From NCBI GenBank assembly GCA_002427745.1, contig DIYF01000108.1:1-25894 (forward strand): a stretch of DNA of 25,894 bases, written 5' to 3'. Shown piece after piece: positions 2,769 through 22,527 of this stretch. A program made the translations under genes and the position numbers. Below the pieces are notes generated by a model, which made no database searches, was not told the DNA's origin, and saw nothing but the letters and a program-made list of their open reading frames with translations. How positions within the stretch are numbered: the first letter of the stretch is position 1; every line of letters starts with the position of its first letter. Source of the DNA: Roseivirga sp. UBA6061 (lineage in GTDB: Bacteria; Bacteroidota; Bacteroidia; Cytophagales; Cyclobacteriaceae).

Positions 2769-3071
2769 TAAATTGCATATGATTATAAATCATTTTAAAT
2801 CAGACTTCTAACAATATATAATTAAACATTTACTTTACTAAAAAATCAGATATTCAGACCGGGGTTTTCAAAAGAACCACTCTCTGAATTCAGGTCATAG
2901 TGATAAAAACTGACAAATCGTCACCCCCGTTTCTATGCGGTTTTGTTAAACCTTTCTCTTCGGAAATTATCTACCGTGTACCATTCCTACCTGTCGGCCG
3001 TTGAATGGTTGACAAGTTTCTTAATAGTCTCTATGTTCGCTCCCCAAATCAAAAACAGAAATTATCTGATC

Positions 3072-3947
3072 ATGAAAAGGTCTATCGTATTCACCCTGCT
3101 CCTATCTATTTTTGCCGGTCTTAAAATGGAAGCCCAAAACCCTCCGGGTACTGACATTTATATCTTCAATCTGAAGGAGGTAAAACGCAGAGTCAAGATT
3201 ACGAACCCCTGGAATATTACCAACCGGGACAGCTACGACAACCAGCCTCATTTCCGCAATGCCAATGAGGTGTTTTTCACCTCTGCCCAGCCTGATGGAC
3301 AAACAGATATTATCCATTACAACCTGATGGACAGCACGTCTAAAAATGTGACCAATACACCCAATACCAGTGAGTACTCAGCCCACATGTTGTCTCGTAC
3401 CAAATCGTTTGTAGTAGTACGTGTTGAAGAAGACGGAAAGCAGCGACTCTGGCAGTTTCCCATCGATGGTCAGGAGTCTCCCAAACTTATGTTTGAAGAG
3501 CTGGAACCAGTGGGTTATCATGCCTGGGCCAGTACAGAAGTAGCCATGTTTATTCTGGGTGACCCCAACTCACTTATGCTGTCGAGCACTAAGGTGCGTA
3601 ACGACCGCAAGCTGGAAGAAAACATCGGCCGAACCCTTAAGACCAGAGGCAGAAACTTTCTGTTTTCAAAGAAAACTGAAAAGGGTAATCAGGAGATCTT
3701 TATGATTGCCGGCCGTGGTGATAAAATCAGACGCATGACGGTGACGCCTAAAAATGCCAATGACTGGGCCGTGACACCACAGGGCACCTACCTCACAAGT
3801 GTGGGCAGCACTATCTGGAAAATTAACCCTGCTTTTGACAGCGCCTGGTCTCAAATTCTTGACCTAAAAGATTTGGGCGTTGAAAACATTACACGAATTG
3901 CGGTAAGTCCTGACAACACGAAAATGGCACTGGTAGTAGACCGTTGA
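3072..3947 (+). CDS. Secreted TolB-like beta-propeller (PD40 repeats) protein
   Basis: The chosen start at 3072 gives a 291-residue protein beginning with a signal peptide (MKRSIVFTLLLSIFAGLKMEAQ-like, with basic, hydrophobic and polar parts). An open frame reaches back to 2943, but that would place 43 extra residues ahead of the signal peptide. The mature part has PD40/TolB-type blade motifs, such as PHFRNANEVFFTS with DGQTDIIHYNL, and a terminal RIAVSPDNTKMALVVD. Only about four blades fit, fewer than a full six- or seven-blade propeller. It is probably periplasmic and likely binds a partner protein or peptide; the role is unknown. It precedes the actin-like gene by 140 bp and seems to be a separate unit. 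Confidence 0.7.
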   Translation: MKRSIVFTLLLSIFAGLKMEAQNPPGTDIYIFNLKEVKRRVKITNPWNITNRDSYDNQPHFRNANEVFFTSAQPDGQTDIIHYNLMDSTSKNVTNTPNTSEYSAHMLSRTKSFVVVRVEEDGKQRLWQFPIDGQESPKLMFEELEPVGYHAWASTEVAMFILGDPNSLMLSSTKVRNDRKLEENIGRTLKTRGRNFLFSKKTEKGNQEIFMIAGRGDKIRRMTVTPKNANDWAVTPQGTYLTSVGSTIWKINPAFDSAWSQILDLKDLGVENITRIAVSPDNTKMALVVDR

Positions 3948-4012
3948 ACCATATTGGGTTTTTAAATACAAAAGTTTTTAAGAAATTCGACCTGATTTTT
4001 CTTAACCACGCG

Positions 4013-4042
4013 GCAATCCATACGAATTAGTCGTATTATTGC
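4013..4042 (+). promoter_or_regulatory. First leader hairpin ahead of the actin-like gene
   Basis: GCAAT-cc-ATACGA, loop ATTAG, TCGTAT-t-ATTGC forms an 11-pair stem with a small internal bulge, ending 45 bases before the start codon at 4088. It may be an mRNA leader structure or a DNA operator. The pairing is seen in the sequence; the role is inferred. Confidence 0.5.
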
Positions 4043-4068
4043 TTTAATTGCGGCTTCAATAATAAAGC
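4041..4068 (+). promoter_or_regulatory. Second leader hairpin, sharing two bases with the first
   Basis: GCTTTA-ATTG, loop CGGCTT, CAAT-aa-TAAAGC forms a 10-pair stem with a two-base bulge, ending 19 bases before the start codon. Its first two bases (4041-4042) are also the last two of the hairpin at 4013-4042, so both cannot form completely at once. No T-run follows, so it is not a terminator. Confidence 0.5.
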
Positions 4069-4087
4069 CTAACACAAAGAACCTACT

Positions 4088-5143
4088 ATGTTTAAGACCT
4101 ACACGTTCCCTAGTGTATTTGAGGGTAACATTACAGACCTTAGAAACGTATCCCCCGACCTTATCAACGGTATTAAAATATTTCACAATGGTGACGGGTA
4201 TGTCATAGGAAATCTGGCCTTAACAGAAGGTGTTTCTCCTCATAGAAACATAAACAGTGCCCCTGATGAGCTGGATTACAACATCCTGTTAAAATCCGGT
4301 CTGCTTATCGCCAATCAGCGTCTCGGCAATCCATTGACAATCACTACAGGTTTTCCTTTTTCTACTTTCCAGTTGTATAAGGAAATGGCCTCAAACCTGA
4401 TCAACAATCAGCATGTGATTGAATACGATGCCGCTACTTACGGAGGAGGTTCTAAGAAAAATGTACAGGTCGATATAGACAACGTGCAGGTGATTCCTGA
4501 AGTAATCGGTTGTGCCATTGCCCTGAGAAAGGGAATGACCAACGCCACAGGCAATTTCTTTGTAATGAGCCTTGGTTACGGTACGCTGGAAGGTCTCTTG
4601 AGTACTGAAGGTGGTATTGTACAAAGAACCTCTCTTTCTACTTACGGACTGCGTTATGCAGTAAACCTGCTGGAAAAAGAGCTTTCAAAGCAGTATTACC
4701 TTGAATTGAAAACGGAACATCAGATTGATGCCGCCTTCCAGAAAGGTGTGATCTTCCTGAACAGAAAGCGTATTGACATTAAGCCACTGAGAGACAAAGT
4801 GCTGAGACAGTACTACGAAGATGTAATCTCTCCGGCAATGAGAAAGGCTTTCAACGATAATGACTTTACACTCTCTCATGTAATGTACCTTGCCGGAGGC
4901 GGTGCTATGTACCCTGAACTGGTGAATTGCTTTAAGCAGGAATTCCAGGACATTCTGGATCTGGAAGTTGCTCACGAACCACAGGCACTGGCCAGCAGAG
5001 GCTATTGCATCAACTCTTCTCAGCTCAATGGAGGCGTGAAAAGCACAGCCGTAGGACTTGATATTGGTAATGCATCTACCATCGTATCAATGTTCGATGA
5101 AAACAATCTTAGTTCTGAAACCAGTATACCGGCAGACTACTAA
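4088..5143 (+). CDS. Actin-like (ParM/Alp-type) ATPase, apparently circularly permuted
   Basis: This is a 351-residue actin-superfamily protein. From residue 1 it reads like a ParM-type protein that lacks its first hairpin: TYTFPSVFEGN, then LTITTGFPFS at about 83-92, the connecting segment VIPEVIGCAIALRKG at 135-149, a phosphate-2-like loop FFVMSLGYGTLEG at 157-169, and the adenosine loop MYLAGGGAMYPEL at 266-278. The phosphate-1 hairpin, normally at the N-terminus, is instead at residues 321-335 (AVGLDIGNASTIVSM) after a short linker. An in-frame TAA at 4070-4072 with no start codon after it excludes a longer N-terminus. In phosphate-2 the usual Asp is Ser161. It probably forms ATP-dependent filaments. 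A bactofilin gene follows after 3 nt. There is no adjacent ParR-like gene, so plasmid partition is unlikely. Confidence 0.8.
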   Translation: MFKTYTFPSVFEGNITDLRNVSPDLINGIKIFHNGDGYVIGNLALTEGVSPHRNINSAPDELDYNILLKSGLLIANQRLGNPLTITTGFPFSTFQLYKEMASNLINNQHVIEYDAATYGGGSKKNVQVDIDNVQVIPEVIGCAIALRKGMTNATGNFFVMSLGYGTLEGLLSTEGGIVQRTSLSTYGLRYAVNLLEKELSKQYYLELKTEHQIDAAFQKGVIFLNRKRIDIKPLRDKVLRQYYEDVISPAMRKAFNDNDFTLSHVMYLAGGGAMYPELVNCFKQEFQDILDLEVAHEPQALASRGYCINSSQLNGGVKSTAVGLDIGNASTIVSMFDENNLSSETSIPADY

Positions 5144-5146
5144 TTC

Positions 5147-5617
5147 ATGGCGAGAGACTCAGTAGCATCAAATCATTCGGTCAATATCACACAGATCAAA
5201 ACAGGGTCTGTAATCACCGGCAATATGAAGTCCAAACACAGTATACGTGTGGATGGCTATGTGGCAGGTGACCTGATTTCTGAGGAAAAGGTAATCATTG
5301 GGGTTCATGGTGAGATCGGAGGCAACCTGCATGGTGCAGATATCACGATCGAAGGCTATGTGAATGGAGATGTACTTACGAAAGGCTCCCTGCATGTAGC
5401 CAGTAAGGCGGTGATTCTCGGCAGAATCTTTTCGAAGGAAATATCTATTGAAAAGGGGGCTGAACTCAACGGCCAGGTAAATGTGGGCGTGGAAGTAGAG
5501 ATTCCTGATCTGGATACTAAAGCCCCGCCAAAGCAGCAGCCCGTCAAGAAAATAGAACCTGCCAAGCCAGCTCAAAAGCAGGCTTCAGGAGACAATTACG
5601 GAACAGTGGCCTGGTAA
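5147..5617 (+). CDS. Bactofilin (polymer-forming cytoskeletal protein)
   Basis: This 156-residue protein has the bactofilin (DUF583) core at about residues 14-115: a right-handed beta-helix of short glycine-spaced rungs such as GSVITGNMKSKHSIRVDGYV, GEIGGNLHGADITIEGYVNG and GAELNGQVNVG. The core is flanked by a short N-terminal tail and a Pro/Lys/Gln-rich C-terminal tail (residues 120-150), as is usual in the family. Bactofilins self-assemble without nucleotide and act as membrane-linked scaffolds for cell shape, stalks or enzyme placement. The gene starts 3 nt after the actin-like gene and ends within a terminator, so the two are almost certainly cotranscribed. No M23 peptidase, a frequent bactofilin neighbour, is present here. 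Confidence 0.92.
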   Translation: MARDSVASNHSVNITQIKTGSVITGNMKSKHSIRVDGYVAGDLISEEKVIIGVHGEIGGNLHGADITIEGYVNGDVLTKGSLHVASKAVILGRIFSKEISIEKGAELNGQVNVGVEVEIPDLDTKAPPKQQPVKKIEPAKPAQKQASGDNYGTVAW

Positions 5618-5630
5618 ACAGGCCTTTTTT
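5608..5630 (+). terminator. Intrinsic terminator whose loop contains the bactofilin stop codon
   Basis: GGCCTG at 5608-5613, loop GTAAA, CAGGCC at 5619-5624, then six T at 5625-5630. The TAA at 5615-5617 in the loop is the bactofilin stop codon. It closes the actin-bactofilin unit before the tyrS promoter. Confidence 0.85.
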
Positions 5631-12940: not shown

Positions 12941-15900
12941 CTATTTATCTTTTTTCAGCAATTCTCTCAGCTTCTTATTCTCTTCTTCCAGCTTCTCTAT
13001 CTTTTTGTTCATTTCAATCAGATAGAGTGTTACTTCCTCTACTTTCTTTAAAAGTGTAGCATCCATATTGCCCAGGTCAATCCCCTTTTCTTCCACTTCT
13101 TTGGCAGAGGGTACTTCAGGCAGGTGCTTGTTGTCTTTGACAAAGGCTTCTACTTCGCTGAGCGGTCTCAGTCTGAACTCAGGCTCAAAGACATAGTCAG
13201 GCCAGCCCTGACCGGGAGTGGCCGTAACAATGAGCTTGGTAGCTTCCGCCTCACCATTTATAATCAGATCTCCACCGATGTCTCCTCCATTGGCGAAATG
13301 AAACGAGTTAAGGTCTACCCAAAACGGCACCAAACCATTTGCTCCATTATAAAAGACCCTATCATTTATCTTGTTATACCCCCATCCTCTGCCTTCAGAA
13401 AATTTATACGCCAGCGTTGTCATTTCTCCGGAAACATCATTATGCTCCAATACCTTTATATTACCATCAATTACAGTAACTCCTCTGACTTCAAGTTTAC
13501 CGGCTGGTACATCATTACCGGTTCCGATCCCTACTCTCCCTGAGGTGAACTGGATATCTCCTGAGTTATCTGTCCAGGGTGTGGTAAGAGTCGAAAGCAA
13601 TGGTGTTCCATCTGCCAGTAAATATTCAGTAGCTGCTACTTTACCATTTATGGTGAGGGCAGAGTTGGCCTCGAGGGTAGTAGTATTGATACCTACTTTT
13701 CCATTATCAAACTCACCGTAAATCAGCGAACCTCCCGTTTGAGAAACCTCATCATTACCAATGTAGAGCCTGTTAGATGCCAAAGCAGCTCCATTACCCG
13801 CATTATATCCGATAAAGACATTCCTTTCTCCCTCGGAGTCATATCCTGCCCGATAGCCAATTCCGACATTCTGCGAGGCGTTGACACCTACTGCACCAGC
13901 TTCGGTTCCCAAGTATGTATTACCTCCTGCCTGATTAGTGTTCTCTCTACCAGCACCATGACCAACCATGACATTTCGCATACCCAGTAGTGACTCTTTT
14001 CCTGCCTTATCTCCTATCAGCGTGTTGTAGCTTCCATTGTTACGTAGTCCTGACTGATATCCCATGTAGGTATTCGATAAACCTGTAGTATTGCCCTTAC
14101 CACTGGAATGTCCGATAAATGCGTTGTTACTGCCTGTGGTGTTAATATTTCCGGCAACATACCCCATAATGGTATTGTTATTCCCGGTTGTATTAGCTCC
14201 CCCTGCTACGTAACCAAAGACGGTATTATAAGCTCCTTCAGTATTGTCGGAACCTGCAGATCTACCAAAAAACATATTCCTTTCACCGGTCATAGAAGAA
14301 TTACCGGCTGCATGTCCAAAAGCGATATTTCGCGCGACAGAAGAGTAAGTAAGAAAATCATCCCCATTTCTGGTAATGACAACATCTGTATCAAGTTTTA
14401 AGGCTCCGGTAAGGTTTAAACCACCTGCTACCGTCAAGGCAGAGTTGGCATCGAGTGTAGCAGTTCCTATCCCCACCTTACCCGTGTCGAAAGTAATATC
14501 TGATGAAGAGGCTGTCCATGGTGTAGTGATCGTGGAGAGTAAGGGGGTGCCATCTGCCAGCAAGTATTCAGTAGCCGCTACCTTGCCGTTTATAGTGAGT
14601 GCAGAGTTTGCTTCCAGGGTAGTGGTATTAATCCCTACTTTACCATTGTCAAATTCACCGTATACCAAAGCTTCTCTCAAAGAGGCGCGCTTGTTGGCAA
14701 TGTACAGACGATCTGATTCATCAGCCGCTTCAAGACCGGCTTCATAACCCAGAAAAACATTATAATTACCATTAGCTGCGCTTCCTCCTGCCTGCGTTCC
14801 GAGTGCCACATTTCCCTCTCCTTCCAGTGCCTCACCTGCGCGGTAACCAATGGCGATATTGCTACTACCATTGATACTGTTATTACCTGCCTCCGTACCT
14901 ATGAATGTATTTCGCCCGGTTGCACTGCTGTTATTCTGCCCTGCCAGATATCCAATGGCCACATTTTCGTTGGCCAGAGCCCCTGCTGATCCTGCATTGC
15001 TTCCTAAATACACATTCTTCGCTCCATTGTTTGCTGAACCCGCTGCATAGCCTAAGTATGTATTATTAGCTCCGGTTGTATTGTCCAGACCAGCGACATT
15101 TCCAAAAAAGGCATTCTTATCGCCTGATGTGTTCTTATCACCTGCACTATAACCAAAGAATGAGTTATTAGAGGCTGTGTTATTCCTTCCAGCCCATGTT
15201 CCTACAAAAGTATTTCTGATACCAATCAGGTTGGACTTACCTGTTTCATTACCCACAAACACGTTTTGCCCACCTGTATCATTGAGTGAACCAGCCATAA
15301 GTCCCACAAACACGTTACTATTACCTGTTGTATTGCTCTTACCTGCCTCATAGCCAAAAAATGAGTTGGAGGAAGCCGTAGTGTTGGCAGTACCGGATCT
15401 TGAACCCACAAAAGTGTTGTTCCCGCCAGTCGTATTTAATCGTCCGGCTGAATTTCCAACAAACACATTATTATTACCGGTTGTATTGGCTCTTCCCGAC
15501 TCATTTCCAAAAAATGAATTTGAATGCCCCGCTGTATTATACCTGCCCGTCTCGGCACCGAAAAAACTGTTAGCTCCACCTGTAGTGGTAAGGCGGCCAG
15601 CGCCAAAACCAAAGAATGAGTTCTTAGATCCGGTATCATTGGAAGTACCGGCAGCTGCACCAAAAAATGCGTTAAAATTACCAGTTGTATTACTTTTACC
15701 ACTCTCATTACCAAAAAAAGCATTGTTACCTCCTGTCGTATTGGCTGAGCCGGCAGAAATCCCATAAAAGGCATTACTAGTTCCACTGGCTGAAGCAAAA
15801 GGAAGTCCATTGAGTGTAATACCAAAGTCGGTATCCAGCATGAGGTCTCCTCTCAGGGCAAGGCTTCCGCCAACCGTAAGAGCTGCATTCGGATCAATCG

Positions 15901-16165
15901 TAGCTGTGCCTATCCTTACCAACCCATTTTCATCAATATGAAAAGGGGCCGTTGTACCAGTGAGGTTACCGGTATAATAACCGATCTGAAAACCGCTGTA
16001 TAATCCGCTCACCAGCTCCCAGGTTTTGTTAGCGACAGTGTCTGTGAGTTGTAGCTTGCTTCCCGCCTCGTTTTGAACATCTACATTGCCCTTTACCGCT
16101 ATCTGGGCATTGACTACCAATGTGCTAAAAAGTCCGAGCAGCACTACTAGAAAAAATCTTTTCAT
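12941..16165 (-). CDS. Large exported repeat protein, YadA-head-like with C-terminal coiled coil
   Basis: This 1074-residue protein begins with a signal peptide ending at about VNAQ (residue 21). Residues about 129-480 and 608-795 are built of 17-residue repeats with the pattern N-T-T-G-x-x-N-x-F-F-G-x-x-A-G-x-x, which resembles the beta-prism head repeats of trimeric adhesins. The two blocks are separated by linkers that carry a near-identical 50-residue segment twice (502-551 and 816-865). The last 90 residues match a module often seen at the end of Bacteroidota repeat or tail-fibre-like proteins (YVFEPEFRLRPLSEVEAF, HLPEVPSAKEVEEKGIDLG) and finish in a heptad coiled coil (EEVTLYLIEMNKKIEKLEEE). 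No beta-barrel anchor or T9SS sorting domain is recognised. A fibrous surface protein or adhesin is likely. Confidence 0.75.
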   Translation of the reverse strand: MKRFFLVVLLGLFSTLVVNAQIAVKGNVDVQNEAGSKLQLTDTVANKTWELVSGLYSGFQIGYYTGNLTGTTAPFHIDENGLVRIGTATIDPNAALTVGGSLALRGDLMLDTDFGITLNGLPFASASGTSNAFYGISAGSANTTGGNNAFFGNESGKSNTTGNFNAFFGAAAGTSNDTGSKNSFFGFGAGRLTTTGGANSFFGAETGRYNTAGHSNSFFGNESGRANTTGNNNVFVGNSAGRLNTTGGNNTFVGSRSGTANTTASSNSFFGYEAGKSNTTGNSNVFVGLMAGSLNDTGGQNVFVGNETGKSNLIGIRNTFVGTWAGRNNTASNNSFFGYSAGDKNTSGDKNAFFGNVAGLDNTTGANNTYLGYAAGSANNGAKNVYLGSNAGSAGALANENVAIGYLAGQNNSSATGRNTFIGTEAGNNSINGSSNIAIGYRAGEALEGEGNVALGTQAGGSAANGNYNVFLGYEAGLEAADESDRLYIANKRASLREALVYGEFDNGKVGINTTTLEANSALTINGKVAATEYLLADGTPLLSTITTPWTASSSDITFDTGKVGIGTATLDANSALTVAGGLNLTGALKLDTDVVITRNGDDFLTYSSVARNIAFGHAAGNSSMTGERNMFFGRSAGSDNTEGAYNTVFGYVAGGANTTGNNNTIMGYVAGNINTTGSNNAFIGHSSGKGNTTGLSNTYMGYQSGLRNNGSYNTLIGDKAGKESLLGMRNVMVGHGAGRENTNQAGGNTYLGTEAGAVGVNASQNVGIGYRAGYDSEGERNVFIGYNAGNGAALASNRLYIGNDEVSQTGGSLIYGEFDNGKVGINTTTLEANSALTINGKVAATEYLLADGTPLLSTLTTPWTDNSGDIQFTSGRVGIGTGNDVPAGKLEVRGVTVIDGNIKVLEHNDVSGEMTTLAYKFSEGRGWGYNKINDRVFYNGANGLVPFWVDLNSFHFANGGDIGGDLIINGEAEATKLIVTATPGQGWPDYVFEPEFRLRPLSEVEAFVKDNKHLPEVPSAKEVEEKGIDLGNMDATLLKKVEEVTLYLIEMNKKIEKLEEENKKLRELLKKDK
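13571..13720 (-). repeat. Copy 2 of an internal 150-bp duplication in the repeat protein gene
   Basis: It encodes residues 816-865. Compared with the copy at 14513-14662 it shows about 28 base differences by hand count, yet only one amino-acid change (Leu860 for Ile546). Confidence 0.85.
14513..14662 (-). repeat. Copy 1 of an internal 150-bp duplication in the repeat protein gene
   Basis: It encodes residues 502-551, from YGEFDNGKVGI to TTPWT. It is the direct-repeat partner of 13571-13720, about 81 percent identical in DNA but 49 of 50 residues identical in protein. Confidence 0.85.
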
Positions 16166-19850: not shown

Positions 19851-20513
19851 CTATTTCAATTGCTCGTCCAATTTAGAGATCAAATAGCTGATATTCTCTA
19901 AAATCTCTTCGTAGAGTGCGAGTTTTTCATCATTGAGATCGGCCCAGTTGGCCAACAGGTTCTGGAACTCCGTATCTCTGACAAAAGCTTTATCGGGCTT
20001 GTTCTGAATGAAGTAATCCGTGTTTTTAGTGAGGTAGACGTTCATATGTTCATCCATAAAAGTCTGAATGATATTCAACATATGTTCGGTCTGGTAGGTG
20101 CGGATGCGAAAATACTGACCGATTTCGGTTCTCAAATCAAAATCCTGGATGATATCCAGCTTACCGCCACTCTTTAAAATCTCGAAGGTATTGTCATTGA
20201 TCACCCAGTTATTCCGGTTGAGAAACGAGCCGATAAACCACTGGATAGAGTCATTGTCATACTGCTTCTTTCTCAGTATCTCTTTAAAGCTGTACACGCG
20301 CCTGGCATTGGCCTGATTGGCCTCTACCTGATAGACAAAGGCGGCACTGTCTGCAGCCAGGTCTGAGCGCAGGGTTTTCAGAAACTCCTGCTCCAGTCTT
20401 CTCTCCTTGCGCTCCTCACCCCAGTTGTTGAGCCAAAAAGCAATGGTAATCCCTACAATGACAATAAGGATTTCAAGAACTATGGATTGTATAGAAAACT
20501 TCTTCTTCGACAT
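19851..20513 (-). CDS. DUF6090-like single-pass membrane protein, array member 4
   Basis: This 220-residue protein has one membrane helix at about residues 10-28 (VLEILIVIVGITIAFWLNNW), then a soluble part of predicted helices in which RRLEQEFLKTLRSDLAAD is typical. It shares start pattern and length with the three genes upstream. It lacks the basic HF motif seen in the paralogues before the helix. Its ATG overlaps the stop of the previous gene (TAATG), so it is probably translated by coupling. The function is unknown; the soluble domain may face the periplasm if the short N-terminus is cytoplasmic. Confidence 0.8.
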   Translation of the reverse strand: MSKKKFSIQSIVLEILIVIVGITIAFWLNNWGEERKERRLEQEFLKTLRSDLAADSAAFVYQVEANQANARRVYSFKEILRKKQYDNDSIQWFIGSFLNRNNWVINDNTFEILKSGGKLDIIQDFDLRTEIGQYFRIRTYQTEHMLNIIQTFMDEHMNVYLTKNTDYFIQNKPDKAFVRDTEFQNLLANWADLNDEKLALYEEILENISYLISKLDEQLK

Positions 20514-21190
20514 TATTTGAGCTTGCTCAGTTCACTGTCAATCCTGGCTACGAGGGCCTCTCTTTTCTCGCTTACCAGGGCATAGCCGGCTTCTCTCGTT
20601 CTGAGGAAGTTCATATAGCTACCCATGAGATTAATCGCCTTATTGGCCCGAAGCGCACTTACATCATCTACCCCGTCCCGCTGAGCTGAAAAACGCACAT
20701 TGTCGATCACATAAGGGTAAATCATGTTGTCTACCAGATTTCTGATCACACCGTCAAGGCGCGCGATCTCCGCATACTGTACATCATACATATCGGCCAG
20801 GGCTGACTTGATCTCAAAGTTGTGGATGAGGTTAAGGTTACCTGAGTTCACCAAAGAGATGTAGGTGCCGTTTTTAGGGTAAAAATAGGGAGCCGTATAG
20901 GTGCTGGTGACGTGGTGCCTTTTAAACACTTCCACTTTGCGGTTGGTAAACAAGAATTGAAAAGTTTCCCCTACGTAATTCCAGATTACTCTGGACGAAT
21001 CCATGACTACCTTCATATCCTCCCTGTCCTGCATAAGGTCTGTTTTGAGTGACTGCAGATAGTTGATCTCCAGCTGCCTGTTTTTACTCTTTTCAGACCA
21101 GCCTTCCAGGGCAAAAGCAATGGAAATACCAATAATCACTACCAACAGCTCTATAAAATGGGTTCTCCACTGAATCTTGTTCTTACTCAT
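20513..21190 (-). CDS. DUF6090-like single-pass membrane protein, array member 3
   Basis: This 225-residue protein begins MSKNKIQWRTHFIELLVVIIG with the membrane helix at about 10-30 and continues with FALEGWSEKSKNRQLEINYLQSLKTDL. The soluble part is helical and keeps the conserved block with SGNLNLIHNFEIKSALADMYD near residue 115-140, matched in the other members as SGKL or SGDL then a short acidic-aromatic segment. It starts 1 nt after the stop of the member upstream and overlaps the next by one base (TAATG). No enzyme motif was seen. Confidence 0.8.
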   Translation of the reverse strand: MSKNKIQWRTHFIELLVVIIGISIAFALEGWSEKSKNRQLEINYLQSLKTDLMQDREDMKVVMDSSRVIWNYVGETFQFLFTNRKVEVFKRHHVTSTYTAPYFYPKNGTYISLVNSGNLNLIHNFEIKSALADMYDVQYAEIARLDGVIRNLVDNMIYPYVIDNVRFSAQRDGVDDVSALRANKAINLMGSYMNFLRTREAGYALVSEKREALVARIDSELSKLK

Positions 21191-21191
21191 A

Positions 21192-21860
21192 TCAAAAGTT
21201 ACTTACCTCAGTTTTGACCAGCTCTAAAATCTCCCTGCTATAATTACTCGCCTTCATATATCCCTCCTTCATATTCACCAGCTGACCTTCCAGGCCTGCA
21301 AATGTATTTCGGTTCTCACGCAGGTCGAAAAACCGCCTGTCCAGCTTCTCGGCAAAGGTATAATCTGAGTATTTCAGCTGTATGGGTGTGACATATTTTT
21401 CCAGATAGGCCGCATGCAGCTCATTGAGAAAATGGATATCATCCATTTTATGCTCATAGTGATACACAATACTTTTTCTCAGTTCGAAATTGGAAAGTTT
21501 ATCCAAGTCACCGGAAGTTTTCAGCGAGTTATAGCCAATACTTCGGGGCTCTGTACTGCTCACCCAACCTGCCCTAAGCAACAGAAAATTCAGGGAATCA
21601 TTCCCGACATCCTTATCTCTGATCAGCTCATTCAGGCGTCTTACATAGTTCAGTGTGTTGCCTACATAGCCGGCAAACTCTTCAAAAGATTTAGCGTCTT
21701 TTTCCAGGTCATCCATCAGGCCTTTCAGGTGCTGTAGCTCTTCACCTTTCTCCTTCCGGTTGGCCGCATAGTTTTCGATAGAAAAAGCGATGGAAATACC
21801 AATGATTACTACCAACAGCTCTATCAGGTATTCGCTCCACCTTAATTTAGTTCTCGCCAT
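21192..21860 (-). CDS. DUF6090-like single-pass membrane protein, array member 2
   Basis: The preferred start at 21860 gives a 222-residue protein beginning MARTKLRWSEYLIELLVVIIG, in register with its paralogues (MSKNKIQW, MADNKINW). An upstream start at 21878 would add six residues and overlap the previous gene by 17 nt; with the chosen start only one base separates the two genes. The membrane helix covers about 11-30. The soluble part has the family block TSGDLDKLSNFELRKSIVYHYE at about 115-136. The function is unknown. Confidence 0.8.
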   Translation of the reverse strand: MARTKLRWSEYLIELLVVIIGISIAFSIENYAANRKEKGEELQHLKGLMDDLEKDAKSFEEFAGYVGNTLNYVRRLNELIRDKDVGNDSLNFLLLRAGWVSSTEPRSIGYNSLKTSGDLDKLSNFELRKSIVYHYEHKMDDIHFLNELHAAYLEKYVTPIQLKYSDYTFAEKLDRRFFDLRENRNTFAGLEGQLVNMKEGYMKASNYSREILELVKTEVSNF

Positions 21861-21861
21861 C

Positions 21862-22527
21862 CTATTTGAGTTCTTCATTTATGGCCTCCAGCAGGTTTTT
21901 AGACGAATTCGTCATCCGCTTATACTCACTTACCTTAAAACTGATAATGTTTCTCCATCGGGCTACCATACTGCGAAAGCCCGGGTCTTTAAGCAATTTT
22001 TTATCCCCAAAATCTCTGTCAAAGATGGCCGATGAGTGCTCAGAGATATAGGTAAGCAGCCGGTCATAGTAGTCCGTATTTACATTGGAGATGTATTCTG
22101 ACTGCTTGAAGTTATTTTCGTAATGGTTGACAATTTTCTTTCGCAGCTCAGCATTGGGAATATCTTCCAGCTTACCGGATGATTTGAGTGATTCATAGGT
22201 GGCATTCGTAATACGGCTGTTGGCCGAGCCGAACATGCGACTGATGGTCTTGTGCAATGAATCGCTTTCAAGCTCTTCGGCCCTGAGTTTTTTCAGTATG
22301 AAGTCGAGTTCATCTACCCTTCCCTGATTAATGGGGATTTGGCTGGACTCGAAGTTGCGGATATCGCGCTCCAGATCATCTTTGAACGAAATGAGTGCCA
22401 GCACCATCTGCCCGTCTTCCTTGCGCCTCTCGGCATATTTATCGATACCAAAGGCAATGGTGATGCCGAATATCACCACAATCAGTTCTACAAAGTGGTT
22501 TTTCCAGTTAATCTTGTTATCTGCCAA
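21862..22527 (-). CDS. DUF6090-like single-pass membrane protein, array member 1
   Basis: This 221-residue protein, the first of the array, begins MADNKINWKNHFVELIVVIFG, with a helix at about 10-29, then FGIDKYAERRKEDGQ. The conserved block is SSGKLEDIPNAELRKKIVNHYE at about 115-137. It lies downstream of accA and its terminator, but no convincing promoter element was found in the 90 bases between, so the array may have a weak or unusual promoter or be read through from accA. Confidence 0.8.
   Translation of the reverse strand: MADNKINWKNHFVELIVVIFGITIAFGIDKYAERRKEDGQMVLALISFKDDLERDIRNFESSQIPINQGRVDELDFILKKLRAEELESDSLHKTISRMFGSANSRITNATYESLKSSGKLEDIPNAELRKKIVNHYENNFKQSEYISNVNTDYYDRLLTYISEHSSAIFDRDFGDKKLLKDPGFRSMVARWRNIISFKVSEYKRMTNSSKNLLEAINEELK

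Follow-up and report, generated by a model that had tools for sequence, protein, structure and literature searches.

Locus and features of the permuted actin gene

The stretch of DNA analyzed here (the window) comprises the 25,894 nucleotides (nt) of contig DIYF01000108.1 from Roseivirga sp. UBA6061 (GenBank assembly GCA_002427745.1). It carries a gene for an actin-like ATPase whose phosphate-1 hairpin lies at the C-terminus of the chain, followed immediately by a gene for a bactofilin (Table 1). A preliminary description of this DNA had read the actin-like protein as a circular permutation, a reading that was borne out by the motif order of homologues, by the scores obtained upon rotation of the sequence and by the predicted fold; a natural circular permutation is, therefore, supported. 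The phosphate-1 motif, AVGLDIGNASTIVSM, was found at residues 321-335 of the 351-amino-acid (aa) protein, as described previously. A codon-by-codon reading also agreed with the earlier placement of an in-frame stop, TAA at 4070-4072, and with the lack of any start codon before 4088; the five codons from the TAA to the ATG are CAC AAA GAA CCT ACT, among which there is no ATG, GTG or TTG. Promoter-like sites were at the level expected by chance (3 observed versus 3.4 in shuffled sequences). The bactofilin partner, its aromatic tip and an Asp-to-Ser change in the phosphate-2 loop are points beyond the preliminary description.

Table 1. Positions of features in the window and, in the last two rows, at related loci
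Feature	Position	Strand	Remarks
Circularly permuted actin-like ATPase gene	4088..5143	+	ATG start, 351-aa open reading frame (ORF)
N-terminal strand, residues 3-8, canonical β3, beside PSV motif	4094..4111	+	Strand in full-length model, coil without hairpin
Glu138, catalytic-position Glu	4499..4501	+	Invariant in 56/56 rows; aligns with MreB Glu
Phosphate-2 loop SLGYGT, residues 161-166, Ser for usual Asp	4568..4585	+	S161 in 56/56 rows; Asp in MreB
Adenosine motif LAGGGAMYPEL, residues 267-277	4886..4918	+	G270 and G271 kept in all 56 rows; G272 in 55
Relocated phosphate-1 β1-β2 hairpin, residues 321-335	5048..5092	+	Predicted strands 321-326 and 330-335; MreB match; rotation test
Partner bactofilin, 156 aa, C-terminus ...NYGTVAW	5147..5617	+	3 nt past actin stop; PF04519, 75.6 bits versus cut-off of 27.9
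Bactofilin terminal Trp codon TGG, proposed tag	5612..5614	+	59/70 distinct linked bactofilins end in Trp
Possible terminator (stem-loop and T-run) 3′ of bactofilin	5608..5624	+	Weak: 1 site versus shuffle mean of 1.5, chance level
Upstream second bactofilin at other loci	L084 5574-5945; L097 5528-5941; also L098, L067, L075, L077, L086, L095		
G009 bactofilin	L176 3531-3998	-	Last codon GGG (Gly) where relatives have TGG (Trp)

Motif order in homologues

Motif order was determined for 204 retrieved proteins, which are a sample only because the best 120 of 623 and the best 120 of 383 homologue matches were taken. Among the matches listed, the phosphate-1 motif was C-terminal in 203 proteins and N-terminal in none. 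The remaining protein, P0032 (272 aa), comes from a partial record that ends before the motif region and was left out of the alignments, while the sole extra copy of the phosphate-1 pattern was located in mid-protein, at residue 129 of P0152. A C-terminal motif was also present in all of 100 distinct ORFs drawn from 124 loci, again with none at the N-terminus, and residues G323, D325, G327 and N328 were invariant in the 56 aligned rows. A duplication intermediate, with the hairpin at both ends, was found neither among the 204 proteins listed nor among the 100 distinct locus ORFs. Homologues with an N-terminal phosphate-1 hairpin, a finding that had been expected to speak against a permutation, were absent from the retrieved set, near or far.

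The actin frame was conserved in 18 of 19 genomes of the genus, indicating that the frame is not due to a sequencing or assembly error upstream of the start, another possibility raised in the preliminary description. The frames of the 18 genomes, including the source, and of one other family member encoded 343 to 371 aa and contained no internal stops; hence, there is no longer, hidden N-terminus in those genomes, in keeping with the earlier exclusion of a missed N-terminus.

Family matches and rotation of the sequence

The native protein matched the Pfam profile ALP_N (PF17989; 1e-9, 39.2 bits versus a cut-off of 26.3) over profile positions 18-148 only and matched the PHROGs family phrog_691 (partition protein; 4.6e-20, 73.1 bits) from position 43 of 329. 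A six-frame search of 296 Bacteroidota genomes detected 11 ALP_N places in 10 genomes, all starting at profile position 16-21; this search undercounts, since the source genome's own copy was missed. In all 31 phylum genomes examined for MreB, the best match began at position 2 or 3 of the MreB profile. Rotation of the whole protein raised the ALP_N score from 39.2 to 47.8 bits and the phrog_691 score from 73.1 to 82.5 bits, with the latter match now reaching position 5. When the hairpin was placed in front of the N-terminal 149 residues, ALP_N was matched over positions 1-148 with 50.4 bits, versus 41.5 bits without the hairpin. Four shuffled hairpins in the same place gave 42.1 to 42.3 bits, all from position 16, and a phosphate-2 decoy gave 42.9 bits. 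Similarly, moving the hairpin of a Balneolales homologue to the front increased its ALP_N score from 46.2 to 53.9 bits. The rotation check proposed in the preliminary description was, therefore, answered in favor of a permutation, as the rotated form matched both families over their full length with scores above those of the native form while the shuffled controls failed. A rotation scan with hhalign at every fourth cut point yielded a score of ~42 for most cuts, and the top local alignment did not extend across the cut.

The hairpin was also recognizable by comparison with other members of the actin superfamily. Residues 320-335 matched columns 10-25 of Bacteroidota MreB as an alignment of their own (E = 0.0011), and after rotation this match merged with the β3 region into a single alignment; residues 3-8 aligned with the MreB strand that comes after the MreB hairpin. 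An Hsp70 chain was matched out of order by the family profile (318-339 on residues 3-24, then 130-183, then 251-317), each of these pieces being weak alone. Searches of the PDB with the single protein sequence produced chance-level matches, and those with the family profile placed a ribosomal protein first (9e-4) and Dh-cParM1 next (0.003).

Predicted structure and nucleotide site

An AlphaFold2 model built from 56 sequences had a mean predicted local distance difference test (pLDDT) score of 85.6 and a predicted template modelling (pTM) score of 0.87. The model had an actin fold, and the best solved matches were ParMs and the archaeal protein Ta0583. In all 50 structural alignments among the matches listed, residue 1 or 2 of the model was placed opposite a target residue between 16 and 60, and the alignment ended at model residue 311-319. 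If the aligner follows chain order, the unaligned target start and the unaligned last hairpin of the model would be as expected of a permutation. DSSP assigned strands in the full-length model to residues 3-8 and to both arms of the hairpin, a block with pLDDT values of ~84 to 94. Removal of the last 35 residues converted the N-terminal strand to coil and left the remainder nearly unchanged (mean pLDDT, 88.2; pTM, 0.86). The simplest reading of these models would be a canonical β3-β2-β1 sheet within one chain. The preliminary description had held that a C-terminal motif failing to pack would count against a permutation; in the prediction, the hairpin forms confidently and the N-terminal strand depends on it.

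The nucleotide site was assessed in the 56 aligned rows. The phosphate-1 Asp (D325) was kept in every row, as were the Glu of the catalytic position (E138) and the adenosine glycines G270 and G271. Two features of the usual actin site were lacking: the phosphate-1 hairpin was not at the N-terminus, and the phosphate-2 Asp was replaced by Ser161 in every row. By pattern, this Ser was present in 198 of the 204 proteins among the matches listed, with 5 unmatched and 1 Asn. In Hsc70, hydrolysis is weakened by a similar replacement of Asp with Ser. The phosphate-2 Ser may, by analogy, result in slow ATP hydrolysis.

Pairing with a bactofilin

A bactofilin gene adjoined the actin gene in all 18 actin-bearing genomes of the genus and was the best bactofilin match in each. 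Among 80 named loci, a same-strand bactofilin was located within 600 nt downstream of the actin in 55 (54 under a narrower adjacency rule), and the gap was -4 to +31 nt in 48 of these 55. The outer neighbours varied between lineages in the ten loci read. The paired loci included 21 from Cyclobacteriaceae, 14 from Sphingobacteriaceae, 12 from Roseivirgaceae, 2 from Dysgonomonadaceae and 1 each from Porphyromonadaceae and Balneolales. In a quickly made tree of 96 actin rows, built after removal of duplicates, of loci preceding L020 and of those with <1 kb of downstream sequence, the bactofilin label required 7 changes versus a mean of 27.0 for shuffled labels. In genome G180, a bactofilin ending in LFF was present ~1 kb downstream of the actin; the count of actin-bactofilin pairs is, therefore, a lower bound.

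Variations on this arrangement were also seen. Eight Sphingobacteriaceae or Bacteroidales loci had a shorter second bactofilin, lacking the aromatic tip, directly upstream of the actin, resulting in a bactofilin-actin-bactofilin order (Table 1). Dysgonomonas mossii (L084 and L097) had two permuted actins in one genome, each with its own downstream bactofilin.

Aromatic tip of linked bactofilins and long-tailed actins

All of the 70 distinct linked bactofilins had W, F or Y in the last two residues, and 67 had Trp there. An aromatic tip was found in none of 54 unlinked bactofilins, which consisted of 13 from the same loci, 6 from the source genome, 28 from actin-free loci and 7 from genomes in which an actin is present but no bactofilin lies within 600 nt of it. 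A terminal Trp was also associated with long actin tails: among the matches listed, all 21 actins with tails of >60 residues ended in Trp, as did 2 of 167 with tails of ≤30 residues. Six loci encoding long-tailed actins had no adjacent bactofilin, and in three long-tailed-actin genomes the sole bactofilin found ended without an aromatic residue. Three long-tailed rows fell inside a 38-row clade (Shimodaira-Hasegawa-like approximate likelihood ratio test [SH-aLRT], 99), whose remaining 35 rows all had a bactofilin. In G009, a genome of the genus (2.6 Mb, 84% complete), no actin was found and the bactofilin-tyrS neighbourhood was without one. The Gly end of the G009 bactofilin (Table 1) is one case and would fit the direction predicted for an actin tag.

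Distribution and genomic setting

The permuted actin was detected in 18 of 19 genomes of the genus (source included), 1 of 18 genomes of the same family, 24 of 395 genomes of the phylum (one being a fragment at a contig end) and 4 of 295 genomes of the class. Its range extends to Balneolales and, going by the name of the source, Rhodothermales. Because this spread is patchy, the gene is, on the genomes searched, accessory. Ordinary MreB is encoded by a separate gene in the source genome. No match was obtained in the plasmid, phage or viral collections, and a rotated query gave a single match to phages, with E = 7; relatives were located on contigs of up to 4.78 Mb.

Some further features of the source DNA were noted. 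The source genome (G000) comprises 8.18 Mb in 188 contigs; it and G008 are ~8.2 and 8.6 Mb, respectively, versus 2.1 to 5.8 Mb for the other 17 genomes of the genus that were searched. The ORF upstream of the actin (2943-3947, + strand) had no Pfam match, and a similar ORF occupies the same place in L020. A 1,074-aa ORF (12941-16165, - strand) has many NNAFFGxxAGxxNTTG-type repeats and a helical C-terminus, with no Pfam match at 0.01. Four consecutive ORFs of 220 to 228 aa with similar starts (19851-22527, - strand) look like a tandem membrane-protein family; the two that were searched matched DUF6090.

Interpretation

The order of the sequence, its conservation, the predicted fold, the pairing of the genes and the correlation of the tip with linkage form the basis for a model that we consider probable, in which a permuted, cis-folded actin likely works in the manner of a ParM/MreB-type actin. 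The chain would start at β3 of subdomain IA, follow the usual order of the actin fold from there and end in the β1-β2 phosphate-1 hairpin, which would fold back in cis beside β3. This hairpin would complete the nucleotide site, where ATP would be bound, and the protein would polymerise. The filaments may be stable because the invariant Ser at the phosphate-2 Asp position would slow or abolish hydrolysis. They would dock, via the aromatic tip, on the polymer formed by the bactofilin of the neighbouring gene; in one clade, the actin itself appears to bear the tip, on its long tail. Actin and bactofilin would then constitute a scaffold encoded on the chromosome and distinct from MreB, not a motor for plasmid segregation. 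Since every member seen, from Roseivirga to Balneolales, is cut at an identical point, the rearrangement is probably old. It may also be suggested, more tentatively, that filaments of a permuted actin held on a bactofilin polymer through a single terminal aromatic tag represent a two-polymer cytoskeleton of a kind not described so far. In this view, the β2-β3 turn would hold the two ends of the permuted chain; hence, the tag could shift to the actin tail and the linked bactofilin be dropped, as may have occurred in the one clade.

Several observations weigh against this model. The cis packing was read from DSSP assignments and confidence values, without coordinates or geometry. Rotation with an 11-residue-longer junction, in which the natural tail was kept, yielded smaller gains, with 42.6 versus 39.2 bits for ALP_N and 76 versus 73.1 bits for phrog_691. 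The bactofilin partner is not universal, since 25 of the 80 named loci had none next door (18 of these were from Bacteroidales, and 4 had <1 kb of downstream sequence). The 70 linked bactofilins are not independent cases because they are related to one another, and a bactofilin of G279 that lies ~1.2 kb downstream of the actin, one gene away, is tipless and was counted as unlinked. Finally, a terminal Trp was found in none of 7 actins with tails of 41 to 60 residues and in none of 8 with tails of 31 to 40 residues.

A permuted and cis-folded protein might not form filaments at all but act on the bactofilin polymer as an ATP-binding switch or a regulator. Tight pairing with a single partner and the weak ATPase activity suggested by the phosphate-2 Ser would suit such a role, which we nevertheless regard as improbable.

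A second alternative, already raised in the preliminary description, is strand donation in trans, in which the hairpin would fill the vacant phosphate-1 site of an adjacent subunit and nucleotide sites would be complete only upon polymerisation. The hairpin is at the chain end, the N-terminal strand requires a partner strand and prediction of a monomer is blind to placement in trans. In the monomer model, however, the hairpin formed in cis with the high confidence values given above. The linker from Y306 to G323 is, moreover, short and nearly constant, with a length of 15 or 16 residues for 256 of the 268 sequences scored; longer linkers were seen in a few members, up to 34 residues (L079 and L099). 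Of 289 sequences, 20 did not fit the pattern used for this count and 1 had no motif, and two values of 47 were pattern errors. On this evidence, donation to the neighbouring subunit would be less likely than folding in cis, and we consider it quite unlikely.

A chromosomal DNA segregation system of the ParM type would account for the similarity to the phrog_691 partition protein and to chromosome-encoded Dh-cParM1, as well as for the source annotation of ParM/StbA. The next gene, however, was a bactofilin in most of the named loci, in neighbourhoods read without a ParR-specific model, and the plasmid and phage collections were without matches. There was no parC-like array upstream, one 8-nt direct repeat pair being all that was detected in the region searched, 3940-4110. 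This possibility appears very unlikely, and a ParM of the plasmid kind was rejected on the basis of element order, the phosphate-2 Asp and location.

Finally, an artefact, whether a missed start, a fragment, an assembly error or a truncated canonical actin ending in a chance or phosphate-2-like motif, has a negligible probability and, judged by the conserved motif order in the genus genomes, listed proteins and locus ORFs, is already refuted, the relatives' frames and the upstream TAA also ruling it out and the C-terminal motif scoring 33.4 against the MreB N-terminal hairpin versus 17.9 against the phosphate-2 region.

Significance and comparison with known systems

The fold of actin has ancient origins, and its nucleotide-site motifs are generally assumed to occur in a fixed order. 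A natural permutation spread over a large part of a phylum would indicate that subdomain IA can be cut without loss of the fold and would explain why such genes have been annotated as ordinary ParM/StbA or as hypothetical proteins. It would add a second actin to MreB-containing Bacteroidota, one tied to a bactofilin through a one-residue tag, and would provide a natural experiment on the influence of chain order on actin folding, nucleotide coupling and assembly. Neither a permuted actin nor an actin-bactofilin pair was found in the open-licence literature, although subscription papers or preprints could hold one. The main text of a 2025 study of genome-encoded ParMs (PMC12270681) does not contain the terms 'permut', 'bacteroid' or 'bactofilin'.

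The fold and motifs are of a known actin type; the chain order is what sets the protein apart. The closest relatives are found in the ParM/ALP family (PF17989 ALP_N; phrog_691; chromosome-encoded Dh-cParM1, PDB 8x1i, PMC12270681), from which the protein described here differs in its C-terminal hairpin, in the phosphate-2 Ser and in having a bactofilin rather than a known ParR as its neighbour. MreB shares the actin fold and the aligned motifs and, possibly, a role as an envelope scaffold, but carries its hairpin at the N-terminus and has a gene of its own in the source genome. The bactofilin-M23 peptidase systems (PMC10945521) are similar in that a bactofilin scaffold acts with a neighbouring partner but differ from the present pair, in which that partner is an actin and the bactofilin ends in an aromatic tip. 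McdB (PMC11321042) provides an example of a single C-terminal Trp mediating an interaction in a bacterial positioning system, although the proteins are unrelated and the target of McdB is the carboxysome.
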